Shown: piece after piece, positions 3,034-7,161 of the stretch
Layout of the letters: every line of letters begins with the position of its first letter
Position numbering within the stretch: position 1 is the stretch's first letter
Origin: Deltaproteobacteria bacterium
Lineage (GTDB): Bacteria; Desulfobacterota; Binatia; UBA9968; JAJDTQ01
Reading direction: 5' to 3'
Assembly: GCA_028821115.1 (NCBI GenBank)
Contig: JAPPHF010000013.1
Coordinates: 1 to 48,397 of the forward strand
Length of the DNA: 48,397 nucleotides
Notes under the pieces: generated by a model
Told to the model about the DNA's origin: nothing
Seen by the model: the letters and a program-made list of their open reading frames with translations, nothing else
Database searches by the model: none
Translations under genes and position numbers: made by a program

Positions 3034-5303
<2,270 letters not shown>

Positions 5304-5307
<4 letters not shown>

Positions 5308-6008
5308 GAGCCGCTCCCGCGCCGGATCTCGTCGACCATGGACGAGAAGATCTTGAGGCCGCTCTCTCCCCCGAGCACGGCTTCGGTGGCGTCCTCGGGA
5401 TGCGGCATGAGGCCGAACACGTTGCGCGCGCGGTTGCAGATGCCGGCGATGCCGTCCGCCGAGCCGTTGGGGTTGGCCTCTTCGGACACCTCGCCCGCCG
5501 CGTCCGCGTAGCGCAGCAGCACCTGTCCGTTGTCGTCGAGCTGTTTCAGGGTGGCGGGATTGGCGTAGTAGCGGCCTTCGCCGTGCTTCACTGGCATCTC
5601 CAGCAATTCGCCGGGCTCGGCCAGACGCGTGAACGGGGAGCGGTTGTCCTCGACCCGCAGATACACCCGCCGGCACACGAAACGTAGCGAGGCATTACGG
5701 GTCAGAGCCCCAGGCAGCAGCCCCGATTCGCAGAGGATCTGGAAACCGTTGCAGATGCCGAGCACCAGCCCGCCCGACCCGGCGAAGTCGACGATGCCCT
5801 GCATGACCGGCGAGAAGCGGGCCATGGCGCCGGCCCGCAGGTAGTCGCCGTAGGAGAAGCCGCCGGGCAGCACCACGCCGTCGCAGCCGCCGGGGAACGG
5901 GTCCTTGTGCCAGAGGGTGCGGACATCCTGCCCGAGCACGTTGCGCAGGCAGTGGAGGACGTCGTCGTCGTCGCAGGAACCGGGAAAAACGGCCACTCCC
6001 CAACGCAT
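5304..6008 (-). CDS. purQ: Phosphoribosylformylglycinamidine synthase, glutaminase subunit
   Basis: A class I glutamine amidotransferase of 234 residues that makes ammonia for PurL. The nucleophile is Cys86 in GICNGFQIL and the His-Glu pair is in MPHPEDA near residue 203; [17 protein letters not shown] is the PurQ-specific oxyanion region. It overlaps purL by four bases. Its upstream junction with purS has been split by a 184-bp inverted-repeat element. The AGGA that now precedes the ATG by eight bases lies inside the element's terminal repeat, so the element appears to supply the ribosome binding site. Confidence 0.97.
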
Positions 6009-6011
6009 GCT

Positions 6012-6195
6012 TAGTGTCCTGTCTGGTCCATTCGCACGACAATCTGCTGGTCTTTTTCGCCGTCGGCTGCGTTGCTCTTCCTCGCGTGGTACCCGCCCTG
6101 GGGCGACCTACGGTCGCCCCCACTCGTCATCGCGCCTTGCCGACAACGAAAAATCCTGCGCATCTTGCCGCGCGAATGGACCAGACAGGACACTA
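6012..6195. mobile_element. MITE-like element with 24-bp terminal inverted repeats and TA duplication
   Basis: TAGTGTCCTGTCTGGTCCAT at 6012 is repeated in perfect inverted form ending at 6195; the identity runs 24 bases. Inside the ends, imperfect complementarity continues (for example CTTTTTCGCCGTCGGC against ATTTTTCGTTGTCGGC), so the whole element can fold into one long hairpin. Near the centre is a perfect nine-base stem with a TAC loop, GGGGCGACC/GGTCGCCCC at 6100-6120. TA at both edges fits the target duplication of the IS630/Tc1-mariner group. It holds no credible gene. Removing one TA plus the element restores a purS TAA stop two bases ahead of the purQ ATG. Confidence 0.85.
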
Positions 6196-6444
6196 TTCCG
6201 CGGGTTCCAGGATCTCGAAGCGGTAGTCTTCGATGACGGGGTTGGCGAGGAGCTTGTCGCACATGCGCCGAGCCTGCTGCTCCGCGTCCTCGGCCGCAGA
6301 CACGTCCATGTGAAGCTCCAGGTATTTGCCGACGCGGACGTCTTGCACCGCGCCGAAGCCGAGGCTGTGGAGGGAGTTCTGGACCGCCTTGCCCTGGGGG
6401 TCCAGGACTCCCTCCTTGAGGGTCACGAAGACTTTGACGAGCAA
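6193..6444 (-). CDS. purS: Phosphoribosylformylglycinamidine synthase, PurS subunit
   Basis: PurS is the small structural subunit that docks PurQ on PurL and helps ammonia transfer. The 83 residues match the family length and pattern: VKVFVTLKEGVLDPQGKAV at the start, LGF..V..VRVGKY in the middle and a C-terminal CDKLLANPVIEDYRFE. Its stop codon TAG coincides with the edge of the inserted MITE-like element; before insertion the stop would have been TAA. It starts nine bases behind purC. Confidence 0.96.
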   Translation of the reverse strand: MLVKVFVTLKEGVLDPQGKAVQNSLHSLGFGAVQDVRVGKYLELHMDVSAAEDAEQQARRMCDKLLANPVIEDYRFEILEPAE

Positions 6445-6453
6445 GGTGCGGTC

Positions 6454-7161
6454 CTAGCCGCCGGTGACCCGGCGGCAGACCTCCTGGTAGGCGTCCTCGA
6501 CGCCGCCCAGGTCGCGGCGGAAGCGGTCCTTGTCCATCTTCTCGAGGGAGCCCTTCTGCCAGAAGCGACAGGTGTCGGGGCAGATCTCGTCGGCGAGGAC
6601 GACCTGGCCGTCGCGCTTCCCGAACTCGAGCTTGAAGTCCACCAGGATCAGGTCCCGCTCGTCGAAGAACGCCGTCATCAGATCATTGATGCGGAAGGTG
6701 AGACGCTTGATCTCCGCCAGCTCCTCGGCGGTGGCATAGCCCAGCGCCAGGATGTGGTAGTCATTGATGATCGGGTCATCGAGCTCGTCGCACTTGTAGC
6801 AGAACTCCAAGATGGTGGTGGACAACGACTGCCCCTCCTCCAGCCCGAGCCGCTTGGCCATGCTGCCGGCGACGATGTTCCGGATAATGACCTCGATGGG
6901 AAGCATGTCCAGCTTCCACACCAGCATCTCCCGCTCGTCCAGGCGCTCCAGGAAGTGCGTCGGCACGCCGTTGTCTTCCAGGTGCTTGAACAGCACCTCG
7001 GAGATGGCGTTGTTGACGATCCCCTTGGAGGTGACGGTGCCGAGCTTCTTCTTGTTGAAGGCGCTGGCGTCGTCCTTGAAATACTGGATCATCTTGGCGG
7101 GGTCGTCGGTGGCGTAGAGCTTCTTCGCCTTGCCCTCGTACATGAACTCGCGCTTTTCCAT
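6454..7161 (-). CDS. purC: Phosphoribosylaminoimidazole-succinocarboxamide synthase
   Basis: SAICAR synthetase joins aspartate to CAIR with ATP in purine synthesis. The listed frame begins upstream at 7293, but the family N-terminus is MEKREFMYEGKAKKLYAT, so I place the start at ATG 7161, with GAGGAG six to eight bases upstream; this gives 235 residues, the usual length. Conserved blocks include DDASAFN, NDYHILALGYA-like sequence and LVDFKLEFG with the later DEICPDTCRFW. It lies 58 bases behind purB and is followed closely by purS. Confidence 0.96.
   Translation of the reverse strand: MEKREFMYEGKAKKLYATDDPAKMIQYFKDDASAFNKKKLGTVTSKGIVNNAISEVLFKHLEDNGVPTHFLERLDEREMLVWKLDMLPIEVIIRNIVAGSMAKRLGLEEGQSLSTTILEFCYKCDELDDPIINDYHILALGYATAEELAEIKRLTFRINDLMTAFFDERDLILVDFKLEFGKRDGQVVLADEICPDTCRFWQKGSLEKMDKDRFRRDLGGVEDAYQEVCRRVTGG

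Follow-up and report, generated by a model that had tools for sequence, protein, structure and literature searches.

A MITE of the IS630 type, with a near-invariant core and varying matched ends, in the purS stop codon of a Binatia genome

A 184 bp insert inside the purS stop codon of a Binatia genome is a non-autonomous MITE of the IS630/Tc1-mariner type. The best explanation of the whole, which we hold with good confidence, is that the element was moved in trans and belongs to a lineage whose pair of ends has changed many times. The purS/purQ locus alone illustrates well an event of a type already known, a tolerated insertion in a core operon. In the family itself we read a near-invariant core that is combined with interchangeable matched ends.

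Results

In the window (the whole stretch of 48,397 nt analysed), positions 6012-6195 consist of TA, 180 bp and a second TA, located inside the stop codon of purS and directly ahead of purQ. Profile matches gave the order purB, purC, purS, purQ, purL, with all genes on the minus strand: purC upstream (6454-7158; TIGR00081), purS (6193-6444, 83 aa; TIGR00302, PF02700), purQ (5304-6008, 234 aa; TIGR01737) and purL downstream (3034-5229, 5′ limit approximate; TIGR01736). The 24 bp end TAGTGTCCTGTCTGGTCCATTCGC occurs at 6012-6035 on the plus strand and at 6172-6195 on the minus strand. There is no mismatch between the two, and shuffles of the window never yielded a comparable perfect inverted pair. 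Complementarity of the arms reaches 36 nt at 89%. The left terminal inverted repeat or variable arm (6012-6042, plus strand; element positions 1-31), whose end adjoins purQ, was assigned to the largest arm cluster, with consensus TAGTGTCCTGTCTGGTTAATTCGCATCATAAT; its counterpart on the right (6165-6195, minus strand) was delimited by repeat comparison. Between them lie the inner arms and an asymmetric core, which copy alignment showed to be common to all copies (TTTTTCGCCGTCGGCTGCGTTGCTCTTCCTCGCGTGG ... CACTCGTCATCGCGCCTTGCCGACAACGAAAAA; 6043-6164, plus strand). At the hairpin apex lies an additional 9+3+9 palindrome (GGGGCGACC-TAC-GGTCGCCCC; 6100-6120, plus strand), which is missing in 163 bp copies (e.g. 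L010 and L008), the standard length of the family.

The purS stop codon is TAG (6193-6195, minus strand) and is made of the target TA plus the terminal G of the element. The purQ start codon lies 3 nt past the element, and the purS, purQ and purL reading frames are intact. For the RNA of the element a fold of −131 kcal/mol (z −13) was predicted, and an AGGA on the minus strand (6017-6020) precedes the purQ ATG by 8 nt. The original prediction was therefore confirmed as to the perfect TA-flanked repeats, the sparing of purS and of the purQ start, the 184-base spacer folding as a long hairpin, and the position of AGGA.

The insert is not a lone copy. The window genome (2.2 Mb in 195 contigs, 77% complete) carries more than 40 full or partial copies, as counted with the 24 bp end, many of them at contig ends. 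At least 40 were found in the 2.4 Mb surveyed of a congener, G004, and the element was present in all nine genomes of the genus, which are sponge-associated Candidatus Binatia; we take the host to be a sponge symbiont from the names of the isolates. Compared with the insert, full copies at other places in the genome and in the genus show 90-93% identity. Among 49 other relatives there was no true copy, and the sole weak match was a coding sequence resembling nuoL. With an exact 22-mer of the core, nearly all of the GTDB genomes among the matches listed were sponge-type Binatia MAGs, which shows a concentration in this group rather than strict absence elsewhere. We rejected the core as a cross-phylum motif; the two outside matches, in Eisenbacteria and Phycisphaerales, are unrelated coding sequence. 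Copies of 163-253 bp with repeats of 24 to 31+ bp, a high copy number and TA at both ends of most copies, all without a transposase, are features of a MITE. The dozens of copies, the TA duplication and the IS630-type ends bear out the identification made at the outset.

Some copies have themselves received insertions. In G004, one or two units of REP-like GGGTCAAGCCCGGGG palindromes interrupt the core at a single point, which gives copies 185, 208 and 253 bp long (for example G004:C1:427053-427260 and G004:C1:1690057-1690309). At L332-L333 (G004:C1:2239891-2241281) the elements are nested, the MITE holding a REP-like CCCCGGGTCAAGCCCGGGG repeat in its core and this repeat an IS110-type transposase gene.

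Empty sites were found in relatives. Seven congeners in which the junction was available have no insert there, and their purS-purQ spacers are 2-4 nt long, with TAG or TAA followed by 2-4 nt (TAG+CC, TAA+GGCC, TAG+CGGC). The empty site of the closest relative is GCGGAATAGCGGCATG, and the window reads GCGGAATAG...CACTAAGCATG. When the element and one TA are taken out, GAA TAA GC ATG results. The claim of a restored purS TAA two bases before the purQ ATG thus stands by excision arithmetic, but the exact string is absent from every relative. Since congeners vary at this junction, 'TAA + 2 nt' is a plausible reconstruction for the lineage of the window. At other MITE loci, clean single-TA empty sites were present in G004 (L118, L121, L168 and L019). 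Neither of the two outcomes that had been named as refuting the original prediction, a lack of empty sites or of further copies, was observed.

In the sister family, 19 of 22 purS-purQ spacers (loci L065-L086) are 30-148 nt long. Eleven of these 19 have hairpins beyond z = −2, which derive from other repeats. These findings support the view that the junction stretches easily and that the insertion in the window is tolerated, which makes the insertion less surprising. The spacers are made up of the short repeated words ACTCAGGACTCGGCACTC, TTTTGCAATTTGC and GTCAATAGTCAAC.

C...G flanks, corresponding to the target CTAG, were found in 76 of 128 copies. A preference of IS630 for CTAG has been reported (Tenzen and Ohtsubo 1991, cited in PMC2170065). 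The window's own target, ATAA, lies outside the favoured CTAG. In 2.4 Mb of G004 (G004:C1:1-2400000), CTAG occurs 627 times versus 7470 expected from base composition and is thus 12-fold depleted. A quarter (25%) of the free CTAGs are stop codons, and among the non-coding ones 50%; for G004 copies of the element the proportion at stops is 42%. Exact stop-codon insertion was seen in 35 of 66 intergenic copies from several genomes, where the gene calls come from a simple ORF picker and are approximate (it misreads the window's own 3′ neighbour). The first base of the element is G, so that the target TA is always completed to TAG whichever way round the element lies, and insertion into a stop codon does little harm. 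An element that specifically seeks stop codons is unnecessary, as 42% lies between the values for all free and for non-coding CTAGs. The case in the window fits a general pattern that is explained by the preferred target, the scarcity of CTAG and selection against insertions that disrupt genes, and no dedicated stop-codon targeting is required. The original prediction made too much of purS/purQ as an exception: stop codons hold about half of the intergenic copies, AGGA-type ends recur ahead of start codons and the junction is already stretched in most members of the sister family.

We analysed 128 complete copies and took arm counts from the 103 with TA at both ends. Identity between the two arms was 95.5% within a copy versus 62% between copies. 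The arms fall into 17 clusters, and a single genome contains several of them. The mean p-distance was 0.022 at core positions 58-112 versus 0.488 at arm positions 13-31; the terminal TAGTG is near-invariant and TA-flanked. We also located short palindromic elements by their ends alone in 2.4 Mb of G004 (n=32). The core test was passed by 31 of them, and the core of the remaining one was slightly mutated. The invariant core is not an ascertainment effect of a core-based search.

Chimeric copies with two arm types were rare (L150, L031 and L052). Their rarity weighs against a switching model, which needs them as intermediates. In the chimeras L150:464-626 and L031:2641-2803 there is one arm type per end, with exchange through the core. 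We read the copies as one MITE lineage, in which the ends for transposase recognition were repeatedly exchanged around a conserved core.

No PF13358 transposase and no parent insertion sequence was detected in the 77% complete window genome (G000). In a congener, G001, locus L090 contains an open frame of 374 aa matching the NCBIfam model transpos_IS630 (NF033545; E = 9.5e-70), and the ends of this insertion sequence are TAGTGTCACATCCCACAAAT / TAGTATCCTGTCCCACAAAT. A transposase of the expected IS630 family with such ends thus exists in the genus, although none was found in the window's own genome. Relatives of L090 in the order and class are IS elements with a series of differing ends. Over 31 positions, the right end of L346 agrees with a MITE arm at 28, and both ends of L347 agree with another arm type at 25; L349 has TAGTGGCCTGTAAC in common with further arm types. 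In this way, three to four arm types match the ends of sequenced insertion sequences. An insertion sequence with the window's own arm type was not found in any genome searched, and a phylum-wide search for this end type returned the window's own genome alone among 395, a sample without other members of the genus. These comparisons show in part that the 17 arm types may act as recognition sites for different transposases of the IS630 family.

The MITE shares the TA duplication and the terminal inverted repeats with the IS630 family (NF033545; IS630, ISY100), as well as the CTAG preference reported for IS630 (PMC2170065 and its references). Unlike these elements it carries no transposase, and its core was absent from all 12 related insertion sequences examined. 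The 2.4 Mb of G004 yielded no full parental element; the sole long element with these ends (1391 bp) is a MITE into which a REP-like palindrome and a gene of the IS110 type have been inserted. Locus L298 (G004:C1:1548217-1551214) is a 3 kb inverted repeat with two opposed IS630-like genes and a different end type, ATATAGTGACA.

We propose that an IS630-family transposase, acting in trans, would have inserted the element by TA-specific cut-and-paste at the TA within the stop codon of purS. The TA on both sides, the empty sites and the matching insertion sequences in congeners are the basis for this step. Two observations speak against the proposal: the window's target ATAA is not the preferred one, and no genome searched yielded an insertion sequence whose ends are of the window's arm type. 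purS stays intact through the rebuilt TAG, and purQ retains its start codon. For the paired change of ends we favour a route in which template switching within the hairpin would copy one arm onto the other.

The two strands of the element are not equivalent. Arm mismatches favoured G.U on the minus strand (45 versus 19 unique events, p = 0.0016; singletons 33 versus 16, p = 0.02). Three core pairs (48:117, 50:115 and 51:114) vary through minus-strand wobble only, with U.G in 98 cells versus one C.A. In 65 of 66 copies the more stable fold was predicted for the minus strand, with averages of −100.6 versus −87.3 kcal/mol. Nearly every arm pair occurs as several Watson-Crick types (at one pair UA 28, GC 18, AU 11 and CG 4). 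These observations hint at a strand-specific hairpin of RNA or single-stranded DNA. They speak for a reading in which the element is kept as such a structure, with a functional core and arms free to vary as long as the minus strand pairs; the variety of arms would then stem from compensatory changes rather than from the choice of a transposase. We consider this account unlikely. The terminal TAGTG is near-invariant and flanked by TA, and ends similar to the arm types occur in sequenced insertion sequences. Moreover, the copies share ancestry, so the counts overstate independence, and at gathering thresholds Rfam gave no match to any described structured RNA family in the entire window. Because copy orientation relative to neighbouring genes shows no significant bias overall (22 versus 17), we keep the strand signal as a lead; at very tight junctions there is a hint of orientation only (10 versus 3, p = 0.09).

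Matching arms could also arise solely by hairpin-templated mutation, one arm being copied into the other at replication, without selection for transposase recognition. New symmetrical types would then appear in one step, and the arms do match to about position 31, whereas in related insertion sequences the two ends stay alike for about 14-22 bp only. However, the adjoining inner palindrome keeps an asymmetry (left CGCCGTCGGC, right CGTTGTCGGC) that templating should erase too, and different arm types match different insertion sequences. As the sole cause, templating is in our view rather improbable.

Compared with both, repeated exchange of ends that are recognized by transposases remains our preferred reading. 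It can be extended tentatively, at somewhat less than even chances: the lineage might outlive each autonomous partner, its core being a minus-strand hairpin under selection that is refitted with matched ends for different members of one IS630 clade.

The AGGA at the purQ-proximal end had been taken for a new ribosome binding site. It is a possible Shine-Dalgarno sequence, 8 nt from the ATG. In the full predicted fold, however, its unpaired probability is 0.0, as it is fully paired with the opposite arm, and this predicted sequestration argues against efficient independent initiation at purQ. AGGACACTA ends several arm types and is found 1-9 nt before start codons at L154, L034, L173, L031, L044 and G004 position 1965460. 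When a ribosome footprint was placed over the purS stop in the folding model, the four AGGA bases became unpaired at about 0.8, 0.15, 0.3 and 0.9. A ribosome terminating at purS would thus sit on the beginning of the 5′ arm and may free AGGA in the facing 3′ arm. The model leads us to favour coupling by unfolding over AGGA as a free-standing new site, and the operon mRNA probably still serves for the synthesis of PurQ. Translational coupling by RNA unfolding is a published model (reviewed in PMC12548453), in which the ribosome on the upstream gene likewise opens a structure hiding the downstream start region. The present case, which is predicted only, differs in that a mobile insert brought in the hairpin recently and that the base of the hairpin reaches across both the stop and the start codon.

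The fully paired AGGA would also fit a damaging or silencing insert, whose hairpin blocks coupling and impairs the operon in this strain, and a screen covered in the same review found that strong structure right after a stop codon lowers coupling. Yet purS, purQ and purL are intact, and for most of the sister family the junction tolerates spacers of 30-148 nt, of which 11 out of 19 contain significant hairpins. We regard silencing as quite unlikely.

Discussion

RUP of Streptococcus pneumoniae is a 107 bp MITE with a TA target that is mobilised by IS630-Spn1 (PMC2229807). Like the element described here, it is a short bacterial MITE of high copy number with ends matching an IS630-family insertion sequence. 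It was described with the ends of one insertion sequence, in contrast to 17 end types on one core, and host and sequence are unrelated. Correia/NEMIS elements of Neisseria are palindromic MITEs near genes that form RNA stem-loops, and RNase III processing of adjacent mRNAs has been proposed (PMC2229807). For the present element no sequence relation to them is claimed.

The nearest precedent found for a core more conserved than the ends is provided by the CMITEs of Acropora corals, in which the internal region is more conserved across families than the terminal inverted repeats and is of unknown origin (PMC2872659). CMITEs are eukaryotic, piggyBac-type elements of ~100 bp with a TTAA target, and comprised eight elements in three families at first identification (PMC2872659). 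The present MITE is bacterial and IS630-type, targets TA and is represented by 128 copies with an ascertainment-checked core and covarying arms. Its IS630-type ends and TA/CTAG target set it apart from the CMITEs; the pattern is similar, but it is not a member. A bacterial precedent was absent from the literature searched, which lay mostly outside subscription journals, and a search with a 12-mer of the core returned no relevant paper.

The window illustrates why a TA-targeting element that begins with G is nearly harmless at stop codons in a CTAG-poor genome. MITEs are usually recognised by their ends, and the interior is expected to degenerate; in this family it is the interior that stays invariant and the ends that can be exchanged. 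This raises the questions of the role of the core and of the way in which the two ends change jointly. The family also offers a natural series of end/transposase pairs for measuring end recognition in the IS630 family.
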